Virus record (IMG/VR): IMGVR_UViG_3300030451_002189
Location: 1 to 36,035 of that record
DNA length: 36,035 nucleotides
Direction: 5' to 3' (one strand)
Origin: a virus
Positions 20,620-35,905 of the stretch are shown in pieces; position 1 is the stretch's first letter, and every line of letters begins with the position of its first letter. The position numbers and the translations under genes are program-made. Below the pieces are notes generated by a model. The model searched no databases, was not told where the DNA came from, and worked only from the letters and a program-made list of their open reading frames with translations.

Positions 20620-23600
20620 ATGAATGATAAGGCGATAGAATATATATTGCAGCAATATGAGTTAGGTAAAGATTCAGATAAAATATATGCTGATCTTGTT
20701 TTTAACCCTATGTTTAAACTAGAGAAAAATGTTGCTAAAAAATTAATTGAAGAGACTTTAAAAAAAAAAGACCCTGGTATAGAAACTACATTCCAAGAGC
20801 GGAATCCTGTTATAATAACTCCTTCAGTAGATATTCAATCTCCATCGGAAACATTCGATTCTCAATTACCAGAAGAAAAGCCTGAAGAAGAAGGGGAAAC
20901 TGACATCCCTATAATTTCTGGCTTAGCTGACTTTGCAGAAGGTATACCTGTTTTAGGTGGTCTTTTTGATTTTGCAGAGGACTTTTCGAGAGCTTTTGGT
21001 AGTGGGGTTACACAAGGAACTGCAGGCGTTGACGCATTAGAAGCTGCTTTTGGTAAAGCAGAAGATGACGATCTTCAAGAGATTGTAGATGCAATGATCG
21101 CTCAAGATCAAATTGGATTATCAGATGAGGCTATTGCTTTGCAAAAACAGATAGATGAACTGTATGCAAATGGAGGGAGTAGCTTTGATGCTTTTTTATT
21201 AAGAGGTACAAGTTTTGATAATTTTAGCGCAAGTCTTGAAATCCTAGGGAACAGCTTAGGATTAATGCTTGGTGCAGCTGTAGATGACTACGGTAAAAAT
21301 ACACTTGGGGCATTAGGTGTTGGTGCTACAACCAGTGCTGCAATAGCAGCTCCTGTGGGCGCTGTAGCGGCATTAAATCCTGCAGGTGCAGTTTCAGGAC
21401 CAGCAGCTTTTGGAGGAGCATTTCTTACTACTTTACCAAAAACAACTATGGGTGCTTTCTCTGGTATTATAGATGCAGAGGCTACAATAATGGAGATAGC
21501 CAGAGAAGAGCTTATGTCTGCAAACAAAGAAATCAATGTAGAAAACTTAAGAGCTGTATTTGAAGATCCTGAGATAAGATCTAGAATGCAAAGTAAAGCT
21601 GCTGCTAGAGGTATTGCAATAGGCCTTATTGATGCTGCAACAATGGCAGGTACTGGTAAGGCTGTTTCAGGATTAGCAAAAGCAGGGGTATCTACTTCAA
21701 AAAGATTTGCAGTTGCTACAACAGGAGAAGTGCTAGGTGGATCAGTAGGTGAAGCTACCGCTCAGCTTGTTACGGAAGGTGAGTTGAATTGGGATGAAGT
21801 TTTAATGGAAGGTGTTGCTGAAGGTCCTATGAGTTTGGTTACTTATGCTACTACTAAACAATCACAGTATAGATTAAACGGACAGCTTGTTAGCTTAGAA
21901 GAGTTTAACAACTATCTAAATAGCGGAGAAAGACTACAGAGCTTTGAGGTTACTGGTGATGCAGAAGTAAAAGATAGGGCTAATAAAATAAAGAAAGCTC
22001 AAAAAACAAGTGTAGATGAGGTAGAACAGATGCTTCAAGAAGAAGCCGCAAAAAGAGGTATAAAACTTTTTGGTCCATCTTTAACGAGAGCTGTTGGTCA
22101 TGCATTTAAAAAAGTACAAGACGCAAAGAATTCTAATAACAAGACAGACATAAACAAAGCAATTTCTTCTGCAGTAGATTTTGTTCAGCAGAGAAACAAA
22201 AAAGATATTTATGACCTTAATGCTTCAGAAGAAAGTTCAGGTTCTAGAGGTAGAACTATGGGTAGTTCAAAGTATGATAGTCAAGGTTCTGTTGCTGACA
22301 AACTTTTAAAAAGAGCTGCTCAAATCAGAGAAGAAGCTAAGCAAAAAAATCCTTCTGAAAGAAAATCTTTACTACAAGTAGCTGAGTCTTTAGAGGTTCA
22401 AGCTGAAGAAATTATATCAGAAAGATCTGAAGTATATAGAATACTTTCTGTAATTAACCCTCAGCTAGCAGATAAAATACAACAATTAGATCTTCAAGCT
22501 AGAAATATAGAAGAGAGGTTAAAAAAAGCTGATATCTCTCCAGAACTTAGAGAAAGCTTAGAGCAAACATTAAAAGATGTTGTAGGAGAAAGAGTTAATC
22601 TAGAGGCTTCAATCGATATATCTTCTGAGGTAGATGCAAATGAAGTTACAGCAGATTACTCTCAAGAAATACAGACAAGAAATGATAATATAGAATCAGA
22701 GATAAGTGATCTTCAAGGCACTATAGAAACCCTTCAAGAAGAGCTGTCTACTGAAAACGCAGATCCTGATGCATTGGATGCGGCTAATGCTAGAATGGAA
22801 GACTTGTTAGAAGAAAGAGCTGAGCTTCAAGACGCTTTATCTGAATATAATGCAGCAAAAGAAAATTTATCTAATCTATCTGAAGATATTGGTGGAGAAG
22901 GTTCTATTGATTCTATAAATGCTATTGATAAAGCAAATGAAAGATTAGCAGAAGCTAAGCAAGCAATAGCTGATATACTTGGGATAGACACGACAACAAT
23001 AGAAGAAGTACAGGCTGATTTGAATGAAACCGCAGAAGCTGTTGAAGGGGCTACGGAAACAGAAACTACAGAAACAGAAAGTACTTCAGAAAGAACAAAT
23101 GAAGCAGATCAGTCTAATATAGATACCTCAGATATTGAAGAAGAAAATACTAAAACTGAAGTCATAGGTAAAGTGCCTGATGAGTTTGGAGGAGGTGATA
23201 TTAAAAGAACTTCTACTACGACAGTTCCTGAAGCAGCACAAAAAACTCCTAGATCTAAGGATAACAATCCAGCGTGGAGAGAGGGAATGGCTGATGGGCA
23301 AATAACAGCTTCCCAAGCTAGAGCTCTAAACAACTTGCAAAAGCTTCTAGATAAGTTAGGTATAGAAATATACATATACTCAACTCCTGAAGCTGCTGCT
23401 AAATACAAAGATGGAAATTGGGGTGGTCTTTATAGTGGTGGAGCAGTTCATATAAATCTAAGCCAGATAAATGAATCTCAAAAGCTAGAGTCTGAAAGTG
23501 GATTTAGAAGAACAAAGAGCTTTGAAGAAACCCTGCAAGAAGAAGTAATGCATGGAATTATAGGTCCTATATTTTCTGGTGCATTTAAAAACAACCCCAA

Positions 23601-26600
23601 GGCTGCCGCTAAGTTTAGAAATCAACTAAACAAAATATTAAATAAAAATAAAGACTTAAAAGATAGGGTTGAAGCTAAGGAGAAAACATACAGAGATGCA
23701 GGGAAGTCTGAGGATGTAATATTTGAAGAAATTATTATAGAAGTTTTGTCTGCAATAGCAGGTGGAACTGAGGCTGTTAATACTGGAACTCTAGATCAAA
23801 TTAGAGTTTTAATAAACAATATTCTAAAAACAGCTGGTATATCTTACAGAATACAGAGCACTAATGATCTAATAAATTTTGCAAACAAATTTAAAGATGC
23901 TCAAGAAGGTAAGAATGTAAATCTTGAATCAGAGATTAATGCTGCTCAGTCTGAAAGAGCTAAAGCTGGTCAACGTGGTGCTGCGGATATAGACGCAAGT
24001 AAGGATAGAACTTCTTCTATGATATCGCCTGCTAAGATCCCTACAAATGAAGATGGGACTGTAACTGTAAAAATATTTAAAGAAGGTTATAGAAAGCTTG
24101 ATGATGGATTTAGAAAAGCTATAGGAGCTTTCCCAGAGGATAGAACGTTTAATGATCAATGGCATTTTATAAACTGGTGGAGAAGGGTGGCAAAAAACAA
24201 TAGCGACTATGTTTCTTTTTATACAAAAGATGACACTCCTATTGATGTTGAAAGAATAAATAGGTACAGATCTAGCGAAAGAGAAAGTTTAGCTTTAACA
24301 CCTGCAGAATCAGACATTAAAGAGATAAACAGGATGGTTAGTGCTGCTCAATCTCAAGGCATTTTAGATCCTATTGTAGCAAAAACAATAAGACTGAAGA
24401 TAAGATCAAAATCTAATAAGTTTAGGTACTTTAATGAAAGAGGGTTAACTGCTGAAAAAGAACAATATTCTAAAAATCAAAAACCTGTTGTAGCTGAATT
24501 TAAAACTTTTGTAGAAGGCATCATAGATAAAAATGCTAAAGACAGAAATATAGATTTTAACTTTAGAGGAGATGATGATGTTAGAAATTCAATATTACTG
24601 TCTAGAGAAATATTGAATACAGATGCTAATAGCAAAATAAACTACGGAAAGGTTGGTGACTTATTAGGAAAAATTACAGGTATTAAACCTAAAACAAGAG
24701 TTCAGACTTATGATTTTTTAAGAGGTGAATTAGAGAAAAGGTTTACAAATACAAATGATGCTGTTGCCCACTACAGTAGTTTATTGGGTGGTATTATTGC
24801 AGACCCTCAATTAAGGTCTGATATGTTTGGCGAAGAGAATCCTATTGAGTTTTTTACCAGTTACCAAAAAGAAGCTGAATCTCTTATAGATAAGCTTTTA
24901 GCTGATGGTGATATTACTGGAGACAGAGTGGATAACCTTGCTAAGCTTAATTACTTTATTGCTTTACTATCTGCTAAAAATCAGTCGTCTACAAATATTA
25001 ATGCTGCGGTAACATTATTAAAAGACTCAGAGAAGTTTAAAATAAATGATCCTCTTGGTATATCAAAAGACTTTATAAGAAAAGTTAGAACTGGAAAGAT
25101 AGAAGGTGTAAGCAATTTAGCTAGACATGCTATAGCTAGGGGTTTAGAAAAACTTATAGCCGTAGTTAATAACGATGTAGCTAGCATTGAAGGAATGCCT
25201 TCTACAATAGTTGACAATTTAAAACAAGGTTCCTCATTTATAAAAGACGGAGCCGTTGACTGGATGGGGTTAACAGAATTCTTATTGTCTCCTTATGAAG
25301 GCAGCAGAGTAAAGATACAAGGGGATGTGGTTTCTCAGCAGATATTTGGTCCAAAGATTGGAGCTTGGCTTTTAAATATGAACCAAGGTTTATTCCCTCA
25401 AATGTCAGTAGATGGAAAAAGATTGTCTGATGTAATTACTATTGATACACATGTTTTAAATACATCTGCTTTAGTATTGGGAGGCTATGTAGACGCTGGT
25501 GCTGCTGCTGGATATCATGCACAAAAAATAAATAGATTAAAACAAGAATATGGTGCTCCTCAAAACGAATTACTAACTGAAGTTCAGTTTGATAAAATTG
25601 AAAGAGCTAGAGCTGCCCTGTCGACTCCAGAAGAGGCTAGGAGTAAAAGACAAAATACGCTTATAAATGATGCTGGTAGAATTATAAGAGAACAAGTTCT
25701 ATGGTGTCAAAAAACAATAGAGTTTTTACAGGTCGAAGGAAGGGATAAAGAGGCTAGAAGAATAGAAAGAGCTTTGGACAATATTATAAACCCTGTTGTT
25801 TCTGAATCTATGCGTCTAAAGAGAGAGTCTAGAAAAGTAGTTGAATCTATTAGACAATCTCTTAACGATACATTTGGAACTGAGCTCACAAACTCTCAAG
25901 TAGGTCAGCTTATGTTTGCTGATAGACAAGCGTTTAGCTTTAAATTATTTAATGATGACGGAACTGTTAACACTAACAGCTTAGATTATAAAACTTATGC
26001 TAACTCATTAAAGGGATTGTCTAGCGTTGATCAAAGACCATCAGCATCAAACGATAACATGTCAGCTTCATACATGATATCTCCTTTAGAGAAAATGCAA
26101 AAGGCAGATGAGTCTCCTTTATATAGAGCAAGAACAGCTTCAGAAGTATTGCTGATGAAGAACGGAAGGCGAATCAATAATAGAGAAGTTAATGAAGCGC
26201 TAAGAAGTGATGCTGTTTCAAGAAGAATATTAGAAAAAAATAACTTTGTAGAAAATGATCAAAAGGTAGGTGTTAGGTTAAACCTTAATGTTCTTAAAAA
26301 TACTGGAGTTCCAGTTCAAACCATTCATGATAAAACAGCGACAGGAGAAGCTCTTTTGTATGCTCCATCTGTTGTGCTTAAAAATGTTAAGTTAAATGTA
26401 AATCAAAACGCTAGAAACAAAATAGTTACATTCCAAGAAAATAAGTTTCCAATGGCTAGTGTTGATGGAAGCTTTGTAACTACAAACCTAGACGAACAGA
26501 ATTACAATGGAGTAAAAGCTTTCTTCAATCCATTTAAGCACAATGTTTTTGTAGATGCATCTGGTAGACCAATCAAGTCTGCTAGCGAAGCAACTGTTGT

Positions 26601-29556
26601 GGGTAATAATGTTTACCTAAGAGGTGATATTGAGTACTATTCTTTTGATGATCCTATCTTAGATAAAGGAAGGGTAGAGTCTGCTGAGCAAAATGCTAAA
26701 AGAATAAAAAGAGGACCTAAGTATGACAAAGGACTTAAGAGGTTTGTTATGTGGTCAAAGAGTCAAGGTGTTGAGTTTGTAAATAACTTAGAAGCTGAAG
26801 CGGCATATGACAATATGCCAATACCTTCTTTAGTAGCTCTCAATGAAAGCGAAGTGGTTAATAACATGGAAGAGGCTCAAGACAGAGCTTCTATGATGTT
26901 GAAACTCAGAGCTACTGCTGGTAGAGGTGCAAGAACATATAGCTCTGTTAGGGATCAGATTATAAATAATCCTTCTAACTATTTTACACCACAAAAGTTA
27001 GAAGAGATAAAAGATAATCTTACAAACAAAAGCGATCAAGATCTTGTTGAAATGATGAGTGGTGAAGGCTTAAGTAATTTACAAAATAGGAATGATGACC
27101 TAGGTGTTTTAGCTGTTTCTGAGCTTATAAACAGAGCTGTCGCAGCAGGAAACATGGATGCAATACCTGGTCTTATAAATCAAGCTTCTCAAATTGGTAC
27201 TACTGTGGGTAGAATCATGAGGCACTTAAGAGAGTTAAAATCATCTACACCAGTTTCTATTGTACAAACAATAGTAAAGGCTGTTGAGGCAAATGGCAAT
27301 AGGCTATCTGCAGATCAAATGACTAGACTAGAGGGTATATCTGGAGAGTTATTTAGACTGCAGGCTGAGCATGAATCTCTAACTAAGAGAGCTATTGCTG
27401 GAGAAAACGTAGATGCTGAACTAAATGCTAAAACAAAAGAGCTAAAATTAGTAGAGAGAAGCCTTGATACTTTTGCAAACGCAGTTATTGAAAGAGGATG
27501 GGGGCAGATAGGAACTATGCTTATACAGGGTAACTTGCTTACTCCAATGTCTCAAATAACAAACGTTGGTGCTAACCTTGTTAATGCTATAGGTAAAGTT
27601 GGTGTAGACATAATTGCTTTGCCTATAGAAAAACTAATTAATGCATTTGGAATAGAATCTCCTATGAAGAGAAACTACTCTATTAATGCTTACATGTATG
27701 GGATTAGAAAGTTTGGAACTGGATTTGTAGAAGCTTTAGATTCTATTGTTACTGGTCAAGAGTCAGATGTTACTGAGTGGAGAATACACAGAGGATTTGC
27801 TCCGTTTAGATCTTTGATGTCTGCTATGGGTAAAGGAGATTTACCTTTAGGTCCTGACGGTAAAGCATCATTAAGTCAAAGAATAAAACTTGGTGTTCAA
27901 GGTACGTTAGGTATACCTGCAGAGACTATGTTCAGGTTCTTATCTCTTGGTGATACTCCTTTTAGAAGATATGTAGAAGGCATGGAGCTTTACAGGGCTG
28001 GATTGAATATGGGTCTAGAAGGTGATGCTCTCATTGACTTTATGAAGCATCCTAACAAAAAAGCTTTAGATGCTGCGCAAAGAGAAGGTAGGAAGCTCAC
28101 ATTCCAGGAGCAAACAACGCTGTCAAATGTAGCTGAAAATGTAACTAAGACTTTTGAAGACATTATGGCTTCTGCATTGACATGGCTTCCAGGTGTAGAC
28201 GGAAAAGCTTTTGCTAAGTTTATGATAAGATCTAACTTACCTTACCTAAGAACACCAGCTAACATACTAATGGAAACCTTAACATATGTGTCTCCTTATG
28301 TAGCTGTACCTAGAATCATGAAAAAGCTTCAAGAAGGAAATGCGAGGGAGGCTGCAGAAAACTTTGGTAAGCTTACGCTAGGAACAATGGCTGCTCAAAC
28401 TGCAACAATATTAGTAAAGGAAGGATTAATTTCAGGTAACATAGAGTGGGATGAAGACGAAGAAAGAAATATTGCATATGATCAGTTCCCTCCTAACAGT
28501 ATTAATGTAAGCGGTCTTAAAAGATGGTTGAAAGGAGAAGATACTTCTCATCAAAATGATGACTACTTTATATCTTATAATAAACTAGGAGTTTTAGGCG
28601 CTATTATGGGCGCTACAGCAAAGTCATCTAATAGAGAAGACTTGAAGTCTAGAGATTACTCTGAAACTTCTTTTGCATTACATGCAGTTCAAGATGCATT
28701 TGGTGTAGGGGCTTTCTCTTCTATGTCATACATGATGGATCAAAGCTTTATGCAGGGAATGAATACATTAATAAGTGTTATTTCTTCAGCAGATGCTAGC
28801 GACTTTGAAAGAAATTTTGAAAACTGGTCTAGAACTACATTCCAGGCTGTATCAGCAACAGCTTTACCTAATACTCTGTCAGCGTTATACAGAGGTAATA
28901 GAGAGTTTTTGCCTGATACACGAACAACAAAAGACGCTTCTTTAACAGATAGGATCTTACAGAGAATGAACTACACAATTAAGGAAAGAACTTTTGGTTT
29001 ATCAGGTGTTCCTGTTAGAATAAACTGGAAGGGAGAACCTATTAGGCAAACGCCAAGAGGAACTACAGGTATGCTTTACAATCTGTTTGATATTACAAAA
29101 GCTAGACAAGGTGAAGATGATCCAGTATCAAACGAAATATACAGGTTGTATGAACAAACATACCAACTTACTAAAGCTGTTGGTACTCCAGGGTATGCAG
29201 AAAAAAGAAAACTAAATGTGCCTAATGTAGGTTCTAAACAAATAAGAATGTTAAACAGAATGGGATTGAATTATAGCTGGATGAATGATCAAGAATTCAT
29301 GGCGGAAAGATTGTATCTCAATACAGATCAAATGAACAGACTTATGGCTGCTTCTGGAAAAGAGAGATATGCAGAGCTTGAAATGCTAATGAGTACACCT
29401 GAGTATCAATCTATGACTGATCAGCAAAAGATAGAAGCTTTAGATGAAATAAATGAAAATTATAATAGTGCAATAGAGATGAAGGGTGGCAAGTTTAAGA
29501 ACCACACTCTCGTTTTATTTGAAATCATGCAAGAAATATATGAAAATGAAAGATAA
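20620..29556 (+). CDS. Giant internal/ejected virion protein (large polyvalent protein type)
   Basis: A 2978-aa protein, a quarter of the window. Seen: a helical N-terminus; Ala/Gly-rich hydrophobic stretches (~residues 212-290) that could insert into a membrane; a coiled-coil region (~600-790); a Thr/Glu-rich linker (~808-840); and a zincin-like segment (~900-1050) with SGGAVHINLSQ and LQEEVMHGII. There EEVMH (974-978) stands where HExxH would be, so the first metal-binding His is missing. GPKIGAWLLNMN with DVITIDTHV (~1577-1605) recalls a domain of polyvalent proteins. The C-terminal third has LLTPMSQITNVGANLVNA, SLGDTPFRRYVEGMELY and NLPYLRTPANIL (~2538), phrases I associate with large polyvalent/ejection proteins. 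No RNA-polymerase DxDGD motif was found. It likely enters the host with the DNA. Confidence 0.7.
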   Translation: MNDKAIEYILQQYELGKDSDKIYADLVFNPMFKLEKNVAKKLIEETLKKKDPGIETTFQERNPVIITPSVDIQSPSETFDSQLPEEKPEEEGETDIPIISGLADFAEGIPVLGGLFDFAEDFSRAFGSGVTQGTAGVDALEAAFGKAEDDDLQEIVDAMIAQDQIGLSDEAIALQKQIDELYANGGSSFDAFLLRGTSFDNFSASLEILGNSLGLMLGAAVDDYGKNTLGALGVGATTSAAIAAPVGAVAALNPAGAVSGPAAFGGAFLTTLPKTTMGAFSGIIDAEATIMEIAREELMSANKEINVENLRAVFEDPEIRSRMQSKAAARGIAIGLIDAATMAGTGKAVSGLAKAGVSTSKRFAVATTGEVLGGSVGEATAQLVTEGELNWDEVLMEGVAEGPMSLVTYATTKQSQYRLNGQLVSLEEFNNYLNSGERLQSFEVTGDAEVKDRANKIKKAQKTSVDEVEQMLQEEAAKRGIKLFGPSLTRAVGHAFKKVQDAKNSNNKTDINKAISSAVDFVQQRNKKDIYDLNASEESSGSRGRTMGSSKYDSQGSVADKLLKRAAQIREEAKQKNPSERKSLLQVAESLEVQAEEIISERSEVYRILSVINPQLADKIQQLDLQARNIEERLKKADISPELRESLEQTLKDVVGERVNLEASIDISSEVDANEVTADYSQEIQTRNDNIESEISDLQGTIETLQEELSTENADPDALDAANARMEDLLEERAELQDALSEYNAAKENLSNLSEDIGGEGSIDSINAIDKANERLAEAKQAIADILGIDTTTIEEVQADLNETAEAVEGATETETTETESTSERTNEADQSNIDTSDIEEENTKTEVIGKVPDEFGGGDIKRTSTTTVPEAAQKTPRSKDNNPAWREGMADGQITASQARALNNLQKLLDKLGIEIYIYSTPEAAAKYKDGNWGGLYSGGAVHINLSQINESQKLESESGFRRTKSFEETLQEEVMHGIIGPIFSGAFKNNPKAAAKFRNQLNKILNKNKDLKDRVEAKEKTYRDAGKSEDVIFEEIIIEVLSAIAGGTEAVNTGTLDQIRVLINNILKTAGISYRIQSTNDLINFANKFKDAQEGKNVNLESEINAAQSERAKAGQRGAADIDASKDRTSSMISPAKIPTNEDGTVTVKIFKEGYRKLDDGFRKAIGAFPEDRTFNDQWHFINWWRRVAKNNSDYVSFYTKDDTPIDVERINRYRSSERESLALTPAESDIKEINRMVSAAQSQGILDPIVAKTIRLKIRSKSNKFRYFNERGLTAEKEQYSKNQKPVVAEFKTFVEGIIDKNAKDRNIDFNFRGDDDVRNSILLSREILNTDANSKINYGKVGDLLGKITGIKPKTRVQTYDFLRGELEKRFTNTNDAVAHYSSLLGGIIADPQLRSDMFGEENPIEFFTSYQKEAESLIDKLLADGDITGDRVDNLAKLNYFIALLSAKNQSSTNINAAVTLLKDSEKFKINDPLGISKDFIRKVRTGKIEGVSNLARHAIARGLEKLIAVVNNDVASIEGMPSTIVDNLKQGSSFIKDGAVDWMGLTEFLLSPYEGSRVKIQGDVVSQQIFGPKIGAWLLNMNQGLFPQMSVDGKRLSDVITIDTHVLNTSALVLGGYVDAGAAAGYHAQKINRLKQEYGAPQNELLTEVQFDKIERARAALSTPEEARSKRQNTLINDAGRIIREQVLWCQKTIEFLQVEGRDKEARRIERALDNIINPVVSESMRLKRESRKVVESIRQSLNDTFGTELTNSQVGQLMFADRQAFSFKLFNDDGTVNTNSLDYKTYANSLKGLSSVDQRPSASNDNMSASYMISPLEKMQKADESPLYRARTASEVLLMKNGRRINNREVNEALRSDAVSRRILEKNNFVENDQKVGVRLNLNVLKNTGVPVQTIHDKTATGEALLYAPSVVLKNVKLNVNQNARNKIVTFQENKFPMASVDGSFVTTNLDEQNYNGVKAFFNPFKHNVFVDASGRPIKSASEATVVGNNVYLRGDIEYYSFDDPILDKGRVESAEQNAKRIKRGPKYDKGLKRFVMWSKSQGVEFVNNLEAEAAYDNMPIPSLVALNESEVVNNMEEAQDRASMMLKLRATAGRGARTYSSVRDQIINNPSNYFTPQKLEEIKDNLTNKSDQDLVEMMSGEGLSNLQNRNDDLGVLAVSELINRAVAAGNMDAIPGLINQASQIGTTVGRIMRHLRELKSSTPVSIVQTIVKAVEANGNRLSADQMTRLEGISGELFRLQAEHESLTKRAIAGENVDAELNAKTKELKLVERSLDTFANAVIERGWGQIGTMLIQGNLLTPMSQITNVGANLVNAIGKVGVDIIALPIEKLINAFGIESPMKRNYSINAYMYGIRKFGTGFVEALDSIVTGQESDVTEWRIHRGFAPFRSLMSAMGKGDLPLGPDGKASLSQRIKLGVQGTLGIPAETMFRFLSLGDTPFRRYVEGMELYRAGLNMGLEGDALIDFMKHPNKKALDAAQREGRKLTFQEQTTLSNVAENVTKTFEDIMASALTWLPGVDGKAFAKFMIRSNLPYLRTPANILMETLTYVSPYVAVPRIMKKLQEGNAREAAENFGKLTLGTMAAQTATILVKEGLISGNIEWDEDEERNIAYDQFPPNSINVSGLKRWLKGEDTSHQNDDYFISYNKLGVLGAIMGATAKSSNREDLKSRDYSETSFALHAVQDAFGVGAFSSMSYMMDQSFMQGMNTLISVISSADASDFERNFENWSRTTFQAVSATALPNTLSALYRGNREFLPDTRTTKDASLTDRILQRMNYTIKERTFGLSGVPVRINWKGEPIRQTPRGTTGMLYNLFDITKARQGEDDPVSNEIYRLYEQTYQLTKAVGTPGYAEKRKLNVPNVGSKQIRMLNRMGLNYSWMNDQEFMAERLYLNTDQMNRLMAASGKERYAELEMLMSTPEYQSMTDQQKIEALDEINENYNSAIEMKGGKFKNHTLVLFEIMQEIYENER

Positions 29557-29980
29557 AAAAATAAAAGACACAAAGCTAGGTAGCTGGCTAAAAAGCAAAG
29601 CTCCTAAAGTATTAGATGTAGTTGGAGATCTACTACCAGATAGCGGTGGTTTAGGTGTAGTTAAGAATTTAATTGCAAACGATCCTGACGTAGATACAGA
29701 TGAAGGAATGGCTGCTGTTGATGCAGAGATTAAGTTTCAAGAAAACGTCACAGAGCGTTGGAAAGCAGACATGGGTAGTGATGTTAAATTAGCTAAGCTT
29801 ATACGTCCTATAACTCTCATTTCTTTGATGGGGATGTTTATGGTTACTATGATGATTGACAGCATGGACAATGTTGCTTTTAATGTAAAAGACTCTTATG
29901 TATCTTTGCTTGAATTATTAATGCTCACAGCGTTTGGTGCATACTTCGCTGGTAGAACTATAGAAAAGAGATCTAAATAA
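29540..29980 (+). CDS. Holin-like membrane protein
   Basis: A 146-aa protein starting at ATG 29540 (or 29546), overlapping the end of the giant gene; an in-frame GTG at 29486 would overlap by 71 bases and is less likely. The N-terminal ~85 residues are soluble and charged. KLIRPITLISLMGMFMVTMM (~87-106) and YVSLLELLMLTAFGAYFAG (~120-138) are two membrane segments, and the end is RTIEKRSK. The 'RP' before the first segment and 'AYFAGRTIEK' at the end match the pattern of GTA-type three-TM holins (and similar phage holins), which release endolysin or collapse the membrane. No endolysin is recognisable next to it. The assignment is good but not certain. Confidence 0.65.
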   Translation: MKMKDKKIKDTKLGSWLKSKAPKVLDVVGDLLPDSGGLGVVKNLIANDPDVDTDEGMAAVDAEIKFQENVTERWKADMGSDVKLAKLIRPITLISLMGMFMVTMMIDSMDNVAFNVKDSYVSLLELLMLTAFGAYFAGRTIEKRSK

Positions 29981-32487
29981 TGTTCCATAAACTACTGATT
30001 ACTATACTATTAAGTCTTGTTACTTTAAGTGGTGCTTTATCTCAACCAGGGATAGACAGTATCCCACCTATAGATAGTTTACCACAGCTTCAATGTGGAC
30101 TTCAAGGTTTGCAGGGGCAGATTGATTGTTTTCCGTTTGCACCAAACCAAGGACAGCTTCAGGTTATGTGGGAACCAACAGCTCCTGGTTGCGAACCAGT
30201 GGGGTTTTACAGGGGTGACGACTTAGATAACTTACAGTTTGTTCCATATGGTCAGTGGTTTTTCAATAGTTTCTATGGAGGAGTATCTTCTTCGCCTGTA
30301 TCTAATGATGAATATTATTTTATAGTAGAGTCGCCAGGTGATATTATGGATACACTAATTATTGAAAACCCTAACTGCGGTGTAGGCTGTTTAGATTCTT
30401 TGGCTACAAACTATAATCCTTTTGCTGGTATAGAAAGTGAGTTTGGAGAGTCTTGTCAGTATGGTGAGGTTTCGGAATGTGGAGATCTATTTACACAAAA
30501 AGTGTATGTAAGTATTACAGCGGATACGTATTCACAGTTTGAAACAAGCTGGGAGATAGTTACTACGGACAGCATCCCCATAGTTCTTGCTAGTGAAGAA
30601 GTAGGTTTTTATCAAACAGAAGGGCTCACTGTGACAACAGAATACTGCATACCGCTTGGAGTAGAGTTTACATTTAATATATACGACACGTTTGGAGATG
30701 GGCTTGCAGGATCTACAACGGGAGGATTTACTGATGGTGATGTTTTAGTATACACAGAATGTGGTAATACAATATACAGCATACTACCATTTGAAGGACA
30801 GAACCCTGACTACGGATATGAAGCTGTTAGTGTGCCTAACCTACTAAACCCATGTCCGCCAGACAATCCGCCTTTTGGCTGCTTAGATCCAGACTACTTA
30901 GAGTTTAATTCTCTTGCTACAAATAATGATTCTAATTTATGTGTAACTCCTGCTGTTCCAGGATGCCTTAACGAGAATGCATTTAACTATGATTCAGAGG
31001 CAAATATTATGGATTACATTCCTGAGTGTGAATACACGCTTATGTTGTTTGATGGAGGTGGTGATGGCTGGGATGGATCTTATTTAGGTGTTGTACAGGA
31101 TGGCGAACCTATTGGTGCGTTTACATGCACAGAAGAGCAAGCCTTTTATGACATAACAGTAAGCTCTCAAACACACGTAGAATTTAAGTTTTATGAAGTA
31201 GAGTTTGGTAGCTTCTTTGGTGAAGGTGGAACAAGCACTGATGTGTCACAGTGTGGATTTAAACTAATAAGTCCTAATGGCAATATAGTCTTTGAGAAGG
31301 GAACTAATCCGTGGCTAGACCCTATAGATCCTGACGAAGTATACACCCCTTACTTAAGGTGTGGCAACTACTGCGAGCCTTACACATACGGATGCACAGA
31401 CGAAGCTGCACAGAACTATGACTCTGCTGTTAATACAGAGGATGGTAGTTGTTATTATCAAGCTGGCTGTGCGCAAGCTGGTTACTTAGAGTATTACACT
31501 CAGGGTTATGAAGCCGACTATGATGATGGTAGTTGTGAAACGGTAGCTGTTTTTGGATGTACAGATGAATCTGCATTTAATTACAATGAAGAAGCAAATG
31601 TTGACAATGAGGGTTGCGTTCCTGTGGTGCTAGGGTGCATGAATCCTTTAGCATATAACTACCTACCATCTGCTAACGTAGATGATAATAGCTGTATACC
31701 TTATATATACGGATGTATGGACCCAGCAGCTTACAATTATGATGAGAATGCCAATATAGATGACGGAGAGTGTGAACCATTTATATATGGATGTACTGAC
31801 AATACTATGTTTAATTATAATCCTGCTGCAAATGCCGAGTACGACCCTTCTAATTGTGAGCCTTACATTTATGGCTGCACTGACCCTAGCATGCTTAACT
31901 ATAACTCATCCGCTAACACAGAGGATTTTAGTTGCATACCTTATATTTATGGTTGTACTGATCCTACTGCCCTTAATTATGATGAATTGGCTAATACAGA
32001 TAACGGGTCGTGTATTGAAGTTTTAGTTGACTGCATGGACCCTGATGCATTTAACTACAATGAGCTAGCCAACACCTCTGACGCAGAAGCTTGCTTGTAT
32101 GATGCAGGTTGCGTAGGAGGTCCTGGAGAACCATACTGGTTAAACGATGGTTGTTATGCTTGGATTATAGATATAGATCCGTACTGCTGTGACGTTGCAT
32201 GGGACGAGACATGTGTGGATTTATACTCATACTGCGAACAAGGTTGGCCGCAAGGTGTTGTAGAAAATATTAGGGATATATCTGTATATCCTAATCCTGC
32301 TCAAGATGTCTTGAATATCAACGCTCCTTCTGAGGCGATTACAAGCGTATACAGCGCACTTGGAGAAATTATAGTGTTAGACACTACAGAGAAAATTATA
32401 GACCTTTCACAGCTCTCTAATGGAGTTTACAAGGTTATAATAAAATATAATGGAATAACTATCAACAAAAAAATTATTAAACTATGA
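29980..32487 (+). CDS. T9SS-targeted secreted Cys-rich repeat protein
   Basis: An 835-aa protein. A Sec signal peptide is clear (LLITILLSLVTLSGALSQ, residues 5-22). Two 'fluid' beta-domains follow, each with a GDG signature (IYDTFGDGLAGS ~234; LMLFDGGGDGWDGSYLG ~355). Then come about eight GC(T/M)DPxAxNYNxxANxDDGSC repeats (~471-705), a WDETC/CC domain (~722-750), and a type A T9SS sorting domain at ~758-835: ISVYPNPAQDVLNI, later LSNGVYKVIIKYNG and the end KKIIKL. In Bacteroidota this C-terminal domain routes proteins through the type IX system to the surface or medium and is removed. The host must supply that machinery. It is coupled to the holin gene (TAATG) and to the next gene (ATGA). 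Likely a surface adhesin or exclusion factor; a virion role is possible. Confidence 0.92.
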   Translation: MFHKLLITILLSLVTLSGALSQPGIDSIPPIDSLPQLQCGLQGLQGQIDCFPFAPNQGQLQVMWEPTAPGCEPVGFYRGDDLDNLQFVPYGQWFFNSFYGGVSSSPVSNDEYYFIVESPGDIMDTLIIENPNCGVGCLDSLATNYNPFAGIESEFGESCQYGEVSECGDLFTQKVYVSITADTYSQFETSWEIVTTDSIPIVLASEEVGFYQTEGLTVTTEYCIPLGVEFTFNIYDTFGDGLAGSTTGGFTDGDVLVYTECGNTIYSILPFEGQNPDYGYEAVSVPNLLNPCPPDNPPFGCLDPDYLEFNSLATNNDSNLCVTPAVPGCLNENAFNYDSEANIMDYIPECEYTLMLFDGGGDGWDGSYLGVVQDGEPIGAFTCTEEQAFYDITVSSQTHVEFKFYEVEFGSFFGEGGTSTDVSQCGFKLISPNGNIVFEKGTNPWLDPIDPDEVYTPYLRCGNYCEPYTYGCTDEAAQNYDSAVNTEDGSCYYQAGCAQAGYLEYYTQGYEADYDDGSCETVAVFGCTDESAFNYNEEANVDNEGCVPVVLGCMNPLAYNYLPSANVDDNSCIPYIYGCMDPAAYNYDENANIDDGECEPFIYGCTDNTMFNYNPAANAEYDPSNCEPYIYGCTDPSMLNYNSSANTEDFSCIPYIYGCTDPTALNYDELANTDNGSCIEVLVDCMDPDAFNYNELANTSDAEACLYDAGCVGGPGEPYWLNDGCYAWIIDIDPYCCDVAWDETCVDLYSYCEQGWPQGVVENIRDISVYPNPAQDVLNINAPSEAITSVYSALGEIIVLDTTEKIIDLSQLSNGVYKVIIKYNGITINKKIIKL
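31390..32095 (+). repeat. Tandem GCTDPxAxNYN repeat array (coding)
   Basis: Copies begin at about 31390, 31555, 31633, 31711, 31789, 31873, 31951 and 32029, mostly 78 bases (26 aa) apart; a degenerate copy sits between the first two and looser relatives lie near 30388 and 30958. Each has Cys at the start and the end, probably disulphide-bonded outside the cell. DNA identity between copies is modest although the protein pattern is strict, so the array is old and under selection for protein sequence. Confidence 0.9.
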
Positions 32488-32672
32488 AAGTAAACTGGAT
32501 TAACAGCTGGAACTCTTATAACAAGAAGGAGAAGTATGAGCTAAACTTTAGACTAGGCACAGTCGATGTGCTTCAGATTCATGTATGCCCTTGTCCTGCG
32601 TGTAATAAGAAAAAGAAGAAGCCTTGTCCAAGGTTTAGACTCATGATACTCAACTTCGGATTCGAATTCTAA
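32484..32672 (+). CDS. Small Cys-rich basic protein
   Basis: A 62-aa protein starting inside the previous stop (ATGA) and ending by TAATG overlap with the next. It has CPCPACNKKKKKPCPRF (~residues 34-50), four Cys in a short basic stretch that could bind zinc, flanked by hydrophobic strands. No signal peptide is present, so it is probably cytoplasmic although it sits between two exported proteins. I recognise no family. Coupling on both sides supports reality; the role is unknown. Confidence 0.55.
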   Translation: MKVNWINSWNSYNKKEKYELNFRLGTVDVLQIHVCPCPACNKKKKKPCPRFRLMILNFGFEF

Positions 32673-33745
32673 TGACTGAAAAAAAAGATTTAACTGTATT
32701 TATCTATGCGCTGATCATGATTGTTGCCTTTATATTAGGCAGCAGTTTTGAAGCGAAAGGACAATCGTTAAAAAAAGTTTTTAGAGGGGCGACTTTCTAC
32801 ACAGCTTTCAGTGGAGGTAACTCAGTGTCAGATAATAACATTTACTCTGTAACAAATGGCTTGCAAACAGATGTTATTGAAACACCTTTTGATTATTCTA
32901 TAGCTGCTGGAGTTAGAAAGATTGCACGTTTTGGATATGAAAACAGAGCGAATGTTTTTTATGACGGCACAGAAAAATCTTATGGAGATGCTGCAACTGT
33001 AGGTAGGATAAATGGTTTTGAGTTTTTATTTGAAGCAGACTGGAGAAGACAACAAGGTAAAAAGTTTCTTGAGCAAGATTATTTTTTGAGATATGTTGCA
33101 AAAAACTGGATTGCTAAAGCAGAATATCTTCAAGATGGTTTTGCGGATGTGGAATACTTTGAAGCTTCTCAGAGATTTAGAGTGAACTTAAATAAGAAGC
33201 TAAGCTTTAACATAGGTGTAGCTCAAAGAATATCAGAGCCTTACGGTTACAACCCTTTAGATCAATGGATGCTGTCTAATGGTAACATACATTACACAAG
33301 TCTAGCTATTGAAGAAGGATATACGATTGATGTAGAACAAGGGGAATACTTTGCTCCAGATGGAACTCTTGTTGCAAATAGCGCTGATGTTTGGGAGCAG
33401 ATAATAATACCAGAGATAATAAGCGAATACGTTTCTACCAAAAGAAGTCAACTTCCTAGTCAGTGGAACTACTCTTTAGTTTTAGGTTACGATTACTATC
33501 ACTTTACAAAAGACTTCTGGGTGCATAGCTGGGCTACCATAATGCCTTACCACTTGAATACAGAAGGTGAATATTCTTACTTTGAAACGACTTCAGGGGA
33601 CCAATGGATTGATTACGGATCTGGCCTTATCTTTGGGTGTAGATTCAACAAAAGTCTTGGTGTATTCTTAGAGGGTAAATACAATAAGTATTGGAATCGA
33701 GAATGGCATGACTTCTCTGTAGGAATTAATTATGTAATATTTTAA
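32672..33745 (+). CDS. Outer-membrane beta-barrel protein
   Basis: A 357-aa protein. After a short basic/acidic start, VFIYALIMIVAFILGSSFEA forms the hydrophobic core of a signal peptide, with likely cleavage near AKGQS (~30). The rest alternates aromatic and polar residues in amphipathic strands (FEFLFEADWRRQQ; SLVLGYDYYHF; IFGCRFNKSLGVFLEGKYNK) and ends HDFSVGINYVIF, a C-terminal Phe as in barrel proteins assembled by BAM. I recall similar C-terminal phrases in flavobacterial phage proteins of unknown role. Possible functions are receptor masking/superinfection exclusion or an anchor for the T9SS protein made two genes upstream; a virion protein cannot be excluded. There is no SD and TAATG coupling to the gene before. 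Confidence 0.75.
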   Translation: MTEKKDLTVFIYALIMIVAFILGSSFEAKGQSLKKVFRGATFYTAFSGGNSVSDNNIYSVTNGLQTDVIETPFDYSIAAGVRKIARFGYENRANVFYDGTEKSYGDAATVGRINGFEFLFEADWRRQQGKKFLEQDYFLRYVAKNWIAKAEYLQDGFADVEYFEASQRFRVNLNKKLSFNIGVAQRISEPYGYNPLDQWMLSNGNIHYTSLAIEEGYTIDVEQGEYFAPDGTLVANSADVWEQIIIPEIISEYVSTKRSQLPSQWNYSLVLGYDYYHFTKDFWVHSWATIMPYHLNTEGEYSYFETTSGDQWIDYGSGLIFGCRFNKSLGVFLEGKYNKYWNREWHDFSVGINYVIF

Positions 33746-33747
33746 AC

Positions 33748-34626
33748 ATGTATCACAAAAAGAAAAAAATGAACATGCCAGGAGGAGGCATGATGAGACC
33801 TAAAATGATGATGCCAGGAGGAGGTATGATGAGACCAGTTAAAAAATTTCAGAACGGAGGTGTACCTCAAGGTGATCCCAACGCAGGTTCAGCTGCAGGA
33901 GCTGCAGGGGCTTCTATCGCTAAAGCTTTTGCCGCTGGCATGGCTGCAGGAGAAGACGCCTTGTTAGAAGACTTTGCGACTGAAGGGGAATTAGACCAAA
34001 TGAAATACCTTAATATGTTAATTGATTCTTCTACACAAGATAAAGACTACACTGCTATGGATACACAGGCAGGACGTAGACGCTCGCAAAGGGATTTGTA
34101 TGACGAATTGAATAATATAATTTCTAATATAGAAACTAGAATGCAAGGAGGAGAACGTCAAGAAAGGCTTTCTAAAGGAAACCCTAAGCCTGGCCCTTAT
34201 GAATTTGCTGCTGGAGGAAAGATGGATTACAAAGTAGCTAAGAGCTTAATGAATCCTATGATGGAAAAAGGCGGCATGACTAAGGATGAAAAGAAAGAAG
34301 CAAGAGAGAAAAGAAGGAAAGAGAATAAAGCAATCAGGGAAAATGAAAGGTTTCAGAGAAGAGCTGCTAGAGATCGTAAAGCTTTTACTTTTGGGACAAA
34401 AAGAAAAGGTGTAGAAGCACTTTTAGAAAATCTTGCTAACCCAGAAAAAGCTTATGAAAAGCAGCAAATAAGAAAGCAGTTAGGAAGAATGGTTGCTCTT
34501 GGACTTATAGGAGGGCTAACTCCTAACATAGCTAGGCAGATAAAACAAAGAGGTAAGTTTGTTCCTCAGAATGAAACGTCAAGCTTATTAGAAAGAATTT
34601 TGCCAGGACTATTTACAGAAGATTAA
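33748..34626 (+). CDS. Gly/Met-rich protein with charged helical middle
   Basis: A 292-aa protein. It starts with Lys-rich MYHKKKKMN and two copies of MPGGGMMRP, then KKFQNGGVPQ, an Ala/Gly helix (AAGAAGASIAKAFAAGMAAG), the phrases EFAAGGKMDYK and EKGGMTKDEKKEAREKRRKE (basic coiled coil), and an Arg/Gly/Phe-rich end. The K-aromatic-x-x-GG pattern recurs in other small genes here. Short GGGMM-type repeats are frequent in marine phage proteins reported as structural, but no function is known to me. It begins 2 bases after the barrel gene and ends 2 bases before the next gene. Confidence 0.55.
   Translation: MYHKKKKMNMPGGGMMRPKMMMPGGGMMRPVKKFQNGGVPQGDPNAGSAAGAAGASIAKAFAAGMAAGEDALLEDFATEGELDQMKYLNMLIDSSTQDKDYTAMDTQAGRRRSQRDLYDELNNIISNIETRMQGGERQERLSKGNPKPGPYEFAAGGKMDYKVAKSLMNPMMEKGGMTKDEKKEAREKRRKENKAIRENERFQRRAARDRKAFTFGTKRKGVEALLENLANPEKAYEKQQIRKQLGRMVALGLIGGLTPNIARQIKQRGKFVPQNETSSLLERILPGLFTED
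33775..33836 (+). repeat. 26-base direct repeat (two copies)
   Basis: Copies at 33775-33800 and 33811-33836, separated by 10 bases, differ at one position and both encode MPGGGMMRP. They are likely recent slippage or unequal-recombination products inside the coding sequence. Confidence 0.85.
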
Positions 34627-34628
34627 TT

Positions 34629-35078
34629 ATGAAAGCTAAAAAATTTCCAGACTTAACTGGTGACGGTAAAACAACAATGGCAGACATCTTAAAAGGACGA
34701 GGCGTTTTTGCTAGGGGAGGAATGATGCGTAACTATGAGCAAGGTGGAAGCGCACCTATGACTCCAGTTGATGGACAAGTTTTACAAGATGAATCAGGTC
34801 GTGAATATGTTTTATTCAGTAAAGGTGAAGGCATGGCTCCTGTAAAAGTTTACTCTGATGACTACGGATGGAACGAAGTAGATGGAGTTTTAGAAAGAGG
34901 TATTCAGTTTATTAGAACTGATATAACATACCCTGTTATTCCTGATGAAGAGTTTGGAGGTCTTAAGTTGGATGCTGTTAGATATGACGCTCAGATGAGC
35001 GATAGATCTGGAGGTATGTCAGATGACATGATGATGGAGGAAGAACAGCCTCAAATGGGAATGCGACCTATACGATAA
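34629..35078 (+). CDS. Small phage protein with dockerin/EF-hand-like motif
   Basis: A 149-aa protein. KKFPDLTGDGKTTMADILKG (~4-23) has a D-x-T-x-D-G-K-x-T-x-x-D spacing like a dockerin or EF-hand calcium loop, and the phrase is common near GG-rich proteins in marine phages as I recall. It is followed by GRGVFARGGMMRNYEQGG, again the K/N-aromatic-x-x-GG theme. The second half has a beta-rich core and a Met/Asp/Glu-rich tail (DDMMMEEEQPQMGMRP). No signal peptide is visible. It is probably a virion-associated or assembly protein; the role is unassigned. Confidence 0.6.
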   Translation: MKAKKFPDLTGDGKTTMADILKGRGVFARGGMMRNYEQGGSAPMTPVDGQVLQDESGREYVLFSKGEGMAPVKVYSDDYGWNEVDGVLERGIQFIRTDITYPVIPDEEFGGLKLDAVRYDAQMSDRSGGMSDDMMMEEEQPQMGMRPIR

Positions 35079-35082
35079 TGAC

Positions 35083-35367
35083 ATGGCTAGGCAAATAGGA
35101 GAAGATACTAAAGTAACGCTAGACCTAAAAACAATAGGTATGGGAGTCGCAGGTTTAGCAGCTCTTATTGGAATGTGGTTTGCTCTTCAAGCAGATATAG
35201 CTTTAGCTATGGAACTACCTGAGCCAGCTGATCCAGAGATCACACGCATGGAGTTTGATATGAAGGACCAGCTAGTACGACAAACAATAATGACAACTCA
35301 AGAAGATGTGTCAGAATTAAAAGAAGACCTGGATCGCATCGAAGAAAAAATAGATAAACTACAGTAA
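35083..35367 (+). CDS. Single-TM coiled-coil membrane protein
   Basis: A 94-aa protein with one membrane segment at about residues 16-40 (IGMGVAGLAALIGMWFALQA) and an acidic coiled coil to the end (SELKEDLDRIEEKIDKLQ). The topology (short N-terminal tail, one TM, long coiled coil) fits an inner-membrane spanin or a holin/antiholin accessory protein; similar small proteins occur beside phage lysis genes. The ATG at 35083 is used; an overlapping ATG at 35078 reads another frame. A clear endolysin partner is not seen in this window, so the lysis role is tentative. Confidence 0.6.
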   Translation: MARQIGEDTKVTLDLKTIGMGVAGLAALIGMWFALQADIALAMELPEPADPEITRMEFDMKDQLVRQTIMTTQEDVSELKEDLDRIEEKIDKLQ

Positions 35368-35369
35368 TT

Positions 35370-35567
35370 ATGAGGCATGTAAAAAAGCTCCCAAGAGATA
35401 GAAGTAATAATCTAAAGCTTAGCAAAAGCGATAGGGAAAAAATAAAAAAGCTTAAAAGAAAAACAAAAAATAAAAGACCCTCTACATCAGAAATAGGAAG
35501 AGCTGCCGCTATGGGTGCTGCAAAAGGCATTAAAGATTTAGGTATGAAGCTTATGAAAAAAAAGTAA
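35370..35567 (+). CDS. Small basic protein of unknown function
   Basis: A 65-aa protein with Lys/Arg making up about one third of residues (KLSKSDREKIKKLKRKTKNK), one short Ala/Gly helix (EIGRAAAMGAAKGIKDLG) and a MKKK end. It is tightly coupled: 2 bases after the previous stop, one-base overlap (TAATG) with the next. No family is recognised. Charge suggests nucleic-acid or membrane-surface binding. Confidence 0.5.
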   Translation: MRHVKKLPRDRSNNLKLSKSDREKIKKLKRKTKNKRPSTSEIGRAAAMGAAKGIKDLGMKLMKKK

Positions 35568-35905
35568 TGAAGCATCTAATCTACATATGTTTATTTGCAG
35601 TCACATCTCTTAATATGAGTATACCAGACTCTGGCATATGTGTTGTAGAGTTTAACGCAGCTTTTAATTCAGCGAATAGTGTAGAATGGATTGATGATTT
35701 AAGCGATTGTAAAAACAAACGCATAGATATCGCTGCTGAACCAGACATGCAGCGTGAACATAAAATTGTTGTTGTACCAACAGTTATTGTATTTAATGAT
35801 GGGGAGGAAGTAGAAAGATTCCAAGCAAATATAATGATGCAACTAGAGGCAACTCAAGATGAAGTGCAGGAGGCGGTTGATGAAATAATGATGAGCTGGT
35901 TCTAA
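35567..35905 (+). CDS. Thioredoxin-fold protein lacking the CxxC active site
   Basis: A 112-aa protein. A hydrophobic N-terminus (MKHLIYICLFAVTSLNMS) may be a signal or anchor. Then CVVEFNAAFNSANS (24-37) takes the place of the thioredoxin strand-WCxxC helix but has no CxxC pair; the only cysteines in the mature part are C24 and C48. KIVVVPTVIVFNDGEEVERF (66-85) contains the cis-Pro loop (VPT) and the final strands of a thioredoxin fold. The fold call is good; redox activity is unlikely in the usual form. In phages such proteins may serve as a structural or scaffolding subunit. Related sequences occur in marine phages as I recall. Confidence 0.65.
   Translation: MKHLIYICLFAVTSLNMSIPDSGICVVEFNAAFNSANSVEWIDDLSDCKNKRIDIAAEPDMQREHKIVVVPTVIVFNDGEEVERFQANIMMQLEATQDEVQEAVDEIMMSWF

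Follow-up and report, generated by a model that had tools for sequence, protein, structure and literature searches.

A phage gene for a type IX secretion system substrate is part of a conserved cassette with an outer-membrane barrel and exchangeable ectodomains

The gene at positions 29980-32487 of a 36-kb virus fragment (IMG/VR record IMGVR_UViG_3300030451_002189; the whole analyzed stretch of 36,035 nucleotides is referred to as the window) encodes, as judged by profile, a type A substrate of the type IX secretion system (T9SS). It carries an export tag, has a partner outer-membrane (OM) beta-barrel, exchanges its outer domain between phages, and lies among late-type phage genes. A sequence-only reading of this DNA had recognized the substrate; the main point beyond it is that the gene is part of a conserved cassette with a phage-specific barrel and swappable ectodomains. 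Taken as a whole, the gene somewhat more probably than otherwise supplies the cargo for a surface-display cassette carried by the phage.

Cargo gene and its operon

The 835-aa cargo ORF is located on the plus strand (ATG at 29980, stop codon at 32485-32487), as are all the features of the holin and the cassette described below, and consists of a signal peptide, an ectodomain, a Cys-rich stem, and a C-terminal sorting domain (CTD). The signal peptide (residues 1-22) is encoded by positions 29980-30045. The swappable ectodomain spans residues from about 23 to 677, and its repeats at residues 466-677 (GCTDPxAxNY) consist of tandem GCTDPxAxNYxxxANxDxGxC units, so that the earlier description of a large Cys-repeat protein was correct. 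The conserved stem (residues 678-757, positions 32011-32250) lies just N-terminal of the sorting domain (residues 765-835, positions 32272-32484) and remains linked to the barrel when the ectodomain is swapped.

The cargo gene is preceded by a phage holin gene (29540-29980; PHROG 3427 "holin", E 8.8e-21). The holin ORF was listed with a GTG start at 29486, but ATG at 29540 is likelier and yields a 146-aa protein that matches the 144-aa relatives. A 2978-aa ORF (20620-29556) is located immediately 5' of the holin. The holin stop and cargo start overlap in the sequence TAATG at 29978-29982, the cargo stop overlaps the following ORF (at 32484), and the stop of that ORF overlaps the barrel start (at 32672). 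Terminase, portal, and virion proteins were also found in the window by a PHROG scan. The proposed coupled operon with holin-like and virion genes therefore stands. A contig from another IMG sample, L003, is 99.86% identical to the window over 15,235 nt spanning the locus, which excludes the mis-join with host DNA that had been considered as an objection.

Export signals

The cargo N-terminus, MFHKLLITILLSLVTLSGALSQ, starts with MFHK followed by a hydrophobic core and LSQ; read by eye, it has a charged n-region, the core, and a Bacteroidota-style LSQ end. Q22 is almost invariant in the alignment of homologues, and residues 2-18 are helical in the structure model. On these three observations, the assignment of a Sec signal peptide was upheld.

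The sorting domain scored above the curated cut-offs of both TIGR04183 (35.1 bits, cut-off 23, residues 769-834) and PF18962 (39 bits, cut-off 27, E 9.9e-10). The type B profile (TIGR04131/CHU_C) was not matched by the window cargo, which confirms the proposed tag as type A alone; among 50 cargo homologues, CHU_C matches were weak and limited to 4 (best E 0.0043). In the cargo model, built with 50 viral homologues, the CTD forms a beta-sandwich. Its top PDB match in Foldseek was 8glk_D, the CTD of NucA trapped in the T9SS translocon (73 columns, E 2.7e-4, TM 0.74 on target), and the next among CTDs was 8glj_D, the CTD of FspA (TM 0.76). The sequence profile of the cargo CTD also matches 8glk/8glj. 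Since PF18962 was found in 48 of the 50 aligned viral homologues, the match is not due to chance. Counted by record, PF18962 matches were present in 33 of 36 phage records (one per record, 29 of them above the cut-off).

Two cargo homologues, L029:9352-12201 and L071:3-2090, lack the TIGR04183 tail and end with LLGR...LLLYIYSDGSIERK (LLGR...LLLYIYSDG...); these tails had no match to TIGR04183. Sequences like them occur in all 52 host-family genomes, one being seen to end at a stop codon, and because of this the export tag of the two homologues may have been replaced by another host-type tail.

The cassette and its distribution

A search with the cargo yielded 79 viral loci, most of which contain four genes together: the cargo, the OM beta-barrel, a 94-aa coiled-coil protein with one transmembrane (TM) helix, and a secreted thioredoxin-like protein. 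The cargo is the first gene of the cassette in most loci and the last in some. In the window, the cargo is followed by a small 62-aa ORF conserved mainly among close relatives (32484-32672) and by its constant neighbor, the barrel (32672-33745; 357 aa, 12 TM strands predicted from the alignment and model). Comparison of loci identified the next two ORFs (33748-34626, missing from most relatives, and 34629-35078) as variable. Of 130 loci, 117 have the conserved 94-aa protein (35083-35367) in the vicinity of the barrel, and 116 have the conserved thioredoxin-like protein (35567-35905; PF00085 at E 0.002, below the cut-off) there. The latter has lost the CxxC motif, yet it is conserved across phages.

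When the barrel alone was used as the query, at least 569 viral contigs proved to carry related barrels. At the 80 nearest barrel loci (the best 80 of at least 569), a CTD-bearing ORF was present on the same strand in 80 of 80, immediately upstream of the barrel in 78 and downstream within 4 kb in 2. In the deduplicated total of loci, 129 of 130 have a CTD neighbor, and the sole exception is at a contig edge. The source contigs reach 298 kb, and the similarity of the terminases and portals of relatives to those of the window ranges from 74% down to undetectable in the stretch examined. On both counts, the cassette appears to be distributed over more than one lineage of phages.

Several loci deviate from the common arrangement. 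Tandem pairs of CTD-bearing genes precede the barrel at L117:6679-9998, L146:6328-10022, and L148:6541-9998. The 298-kb contig L046 (IMGVR_UViG_3300027771_001853) encodes a 1321-aa cargo relative with a CTD, and a weak barrel match (E 7.9e-6) lies about 2 kb away. In several relatives, large proteins contain the GCTDPxAxNY repeats of the cargo and lack both a CTD and, apparently, a signal peptide (L058:2909-7573, L061:1-7497, L066:363-4757, L070:413-10327, and L077:757-8913); that of L061 is truncated by the contig edge. These are perhaps tail or virion proteins, and a PHROG scan of four of them assigned no family.

Among isolate phages, no relatives of the barrel or the 94-aa protein were found. 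The search of isolate and single-cell viruses with the cargo gave one weak match, to the single-cell virus AG-345-P14 (Kyanoviridae), limited to the repeats, and a PF18962 scan of this virus was negative. The portals of Cellulophaga phi38:1 and Flavobacterium elemoA have 28-30% identity to that of the window, and PF18962 was not found in these phages either.

The outer-membrane barrel

Barrel length ranges from 345 to 370 aa across loci, and the window barrel was modeled with about 12 membrane strands (pLDDT 76.7). No family was assigned by Pfam, NCBIfam, PHROG, or PADLOC, and sequence comparison with solved structures gave no match. By fold, only generic barrels were matched among solved structures (NanC, KdgM, TamA); the best viral fold match was A0A516LKJ4 (E 3e-22), a protein that carries no name. 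In the comparison bearing on a FadL-like barrel of the PorV type, a T9 translocon chain, 6h3i_F, aligned at Z 8.6 (rmsd 5.8, 182 residues aligned), within the range of Z 8-10.6 at which many unrelated barrels also align. Homology to PorP/SprF was considered and found no support: TIGR03519 (PorP/SprF) had no match at E up to 1 in 42 barrel members, and hhalign against the host PorP profile gave a probability of 2.3%.

The barrel was detected in one of 52 host-family genomes, on a 43-kb contig carrying the cassette. In a collection of 84,980 species there were five matches, three of them clear, and all three clear ones were on MAG contigs. By this distribution, the barrel is essentially phage-only.

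Exchange of ectodomains and selection

The exchange is illustrated by the window and L075. Their nucleotide identity is 97.6% upstream and 94%-95% downstream, while the sequence from nt 30039 to about 31867 has been replaced. The break falls where the signal peptide ends, and identity is regained before the stem. At the protein level the ectodomains are 39% identical, the stems 89%, the CTDs 94%, and the barrels 99%. The same pattern was observed for L096/L011, L012/L088, L151/L144, and others. Such replacement between near-identical phages suggests that phages of this kind may repaint the surface of infected cells.

Ectodomains fall into classes, with at least 21 class changes on the barrel tree (a count made without a shuffled control). 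Among 202 pairs with a barrel nucleotide identity of at least 0.80, 61 showed a replaced ectodomain and 67 a replaced CTD, but stem identity fell below 0.70 in only 14. Correlation with barrel distance was highest for the stem (rho 0.67, partial 0.39), followed by the CTD (0.49, partial 0.25) and the ectodomain (0.27, partial 0.12). Median dN/dS values were 0.065 for the stem, 0.11 for the barrel, 0.13 for the ectodomain within a class, and 0.22 for the CTD, indicating purifying selection throughout. From the swap counts, distance correlations, and dN/dS, the sequence behaves as an exchangeable outer domain and a replaceable export tag on a fixed stem-barrel core, although the strong constraint acting on the stem (dN/dS 0.065) could be enough to produce its apparent link to the barrel.

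Host

A Bacteroidota host is probable for the window phage. Its portal is 28%-31% identical to portals of Cellulophaga, Flavobacterium, Tenacibaculum, and Maribacter phages, and two cassette contigs were binned in Bacteroidota MAGs, which contain 42 and 15 PF18962 matches. PorP/SprF genes were present in all 11 genomes tested from one of the two MAG families. The GCTDPxAxNY repeats occur in 52 of 52 host-family genomes, so the phage cargo is built from host-like parts. The term marine is presumptive and derives from the MAG and isolate-phage sources of relatives rather than from IMG sample records. One cassette contig, L081 (CALBOT010000064.1), is assigned to an archaeal Nitrosopelagicus MAG and is most likely a mis-binned phage contig.

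Relation to known systems

The earlier statement that T9SS cargo is hardly described in phages proved nearly right, with two precedents. Cryophage (Bellas et al. 2020, PMC7468147) is likewise a phage of Bacteroidota; its type A T9SS-tagged proteins differ strongly between near-identical phages, and superinfection exclusion or strain competition was proposed for them. Allelic variation of this kind in a phage-borne T9SS-tagged gene is seen here between the window and L075 and in the other pairs. Cryophage differs in having three variable cargoes in one phage (an endoglucanase, a glycoside hydrolase 39, and a PA14-domain protein), and the available text of that report describes neither a barrel partner nor a cassette. 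Phages of crAss-BACON cluster 2 (PMC6949934) also encode T9SS-tagged proteins, whose genes lie close to the section of head genes in these crAss-like phages; the proteins contain BACON domains, and a barrel cassette is not described in the portion of that source consulted.

Among bacterial proteins, the T9SS type A substrates of Flavobacterium (such as NucA, FspA, and RemZ; PMC10994853) share with the cargo the signal peptide, the TIGR04183 CTD, and a beta-sandwich like that of 8glk/8glj. They use host PorV, whereas the phage cargo belongs to a late operon and has a phage-only barrel as its partner. In gene order the cassette resembles the SprB-SprF and PG1035-PorP pairs, where the OM barrel gene is directly downstream of the substrate gene (PMC12618676, PMC9143113). 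Those substrates are of type B, whereas the phage cargo has a type A CTD and its barrel is outside the PorP/SprF family. Among superinfection-exclusion proteins that phages direct at OM receptors, Cor of phages phi80 and N15, which acts on FhuA (PMC11436027), resembles the role proposed here as a phage product at the outer surface that stops further infection; Cor, in contrast, inactivates its receptor directly and involves neither a large exported swappable ectodomain nor the T9SS. The literature covered, which lay mostly outside subscription journals and preprints, contained no account of a conserved cassette of cargo and barrel or of how widely marine phages carry it, and the cassette appears to be new.

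Proposed function

Late in infection, the cargo would very probably cross the inner membrane by the Sec pathway and then be exported by the host T9SS via its type A CTD. This part of the sequence-only proposal, that the phage uses the host T9SS to place a protein at the cell surface or in the medium, is well supported at the level of predicted routing because the CTD profile and fold match agree and the tag is retained through recombination and purifying selection. The roles attached to it, namely a block of re-adsorption, protection from predators, and a virion adhesin, are hypothetical. After export, the CTD would be cut off or handed over.

The mature cargo could then remain on the surface of the infected cell, held through its Cys-rich stem by the phage barrel, which might act as a substrate-specific shuttle or anchor similar to PorP/SprF and non-homologous to it; we regard this step as evenly balanced. 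The idea of anchoring draws on what is known from F. johnsoniae, where PorP/SprF genes are directly downstream of their substrates and act as shuttles; SprF binds SprB, and PorP binds PG1035 (PMC12618676, PMC9143113). A type A CTD together with an unrelated barrel may thus work like a PorP/SprF-substrate pair without being a member of that group. An argument against a shuttle comes from the type of tag. Host PorV should be sufficient for type A CTD substrates, which would in principle make a dedicated shuttle unnecessary.

As a tentative final step, the most likely effect of the exposed allelic ectodomain would be to cover or compete with T9SS-displayed receptors, blocking superinfection and the re-adsorption of progeny. 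Mutations in T9SS/gliding genes occur in phage-resistant F. columnare, and T9SS display is thus of importance to at least one flavophage when it infects (PMC9233685). Masking or exclusion is favored because of these gld/spr mutations, the allele exchange in the outer domain, and the proposal made for Cryophage by Bellas et al. The late position in the operon suits a block of re-adsorption better than classical superinfection exclusion, which acts early and fits less well. A PADLOC scan matched no anti-phage family. Overall, the evidence leans toward display at the surface, combined with receptor masking or exclusion; the proposed roles are not cleanly separable.

The cargo might instead be a surface adhesin or host-lifestyle factor that alters attachment, grazing, or particle association and aids spread rather than exclusion. 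We consider this unlikely: the repeats are of a type abundant in host proteins, with matches in all 52 host-family genomes, and allelic swapping would suit a varying ligand, but the late genes of a probably lytic phage leave the infected cell little time, and a family scan of the cargo recognized no catalytic or carbohydrate-binding domain.

In the window the cassette lies directly 3' of the holin, and several relatives have a holin close to it, which raises the question of a lysis or envelope-disruption module. In such a module the 94-aa protein, with its TM helix and coiled coil, would be spanin-like at the inner membrane and the barrel would act at the outer one, while the cargo would loosen or coat the surface at release. 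This seems quite unlikely, given that many relatives have the cassette 3' of terminase and portal rather than lysis genes, that the coil is short, that no PHROG lysis family was found for the barrel or the 94-aa protein, and that a swappable extracellular ectodomain is hard to account for.

It is improbable that the exported cargo, loaded outside the cell, becomes a decoration or receptor-binding part of released virions. Virions assemble in the cytoplasm, and a T9SS-exported protein would need to bind them after lysis. The repeats shared with the large proteins of L058, L061, L066, L070, and L077 mean that the repeat module may serve virions too, but the four of these that were scanned have no PHROG assignment, so that their virion role is conjectural. 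Finally, the repeats and tag do resemble host T9SS proteins, but capture of host DNA without phage function, or a contig artefact, has a negligible probability in view of the replicate contig L003, the conservation of the same partners across many phages, and purifying selection.

Within the favored reading of surface display, a cautiously held and possible generalization is that many phages of marine Bacteroidota have their own T9SS add-on. A phage-specific barrel would serve as dedicated shuttle and anchor of a type A cargo whose stem is kept while ectodomain and tag are allelic, and the surface type so specified by the phage would decide entry and re-adsorption.

The cassette turns an isolated curiosity, a T9SS-tagged phage protein, into a recurring and testable system of marine phages, and the cargo-barrel pair is small enough for testing in a laboratory flavobacterium. 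Should the barrel prove to be a dedicated shuttle or anchor, it would extend a bacterial secretion system by a viral component and would define a new class of OM barrel, one that pairs with type A cargo. Should superinfection or re-adsorption be decided by the swappable ectodomain, phages that infect marine Bacteroidota would have in it a mechanism of surface identity.
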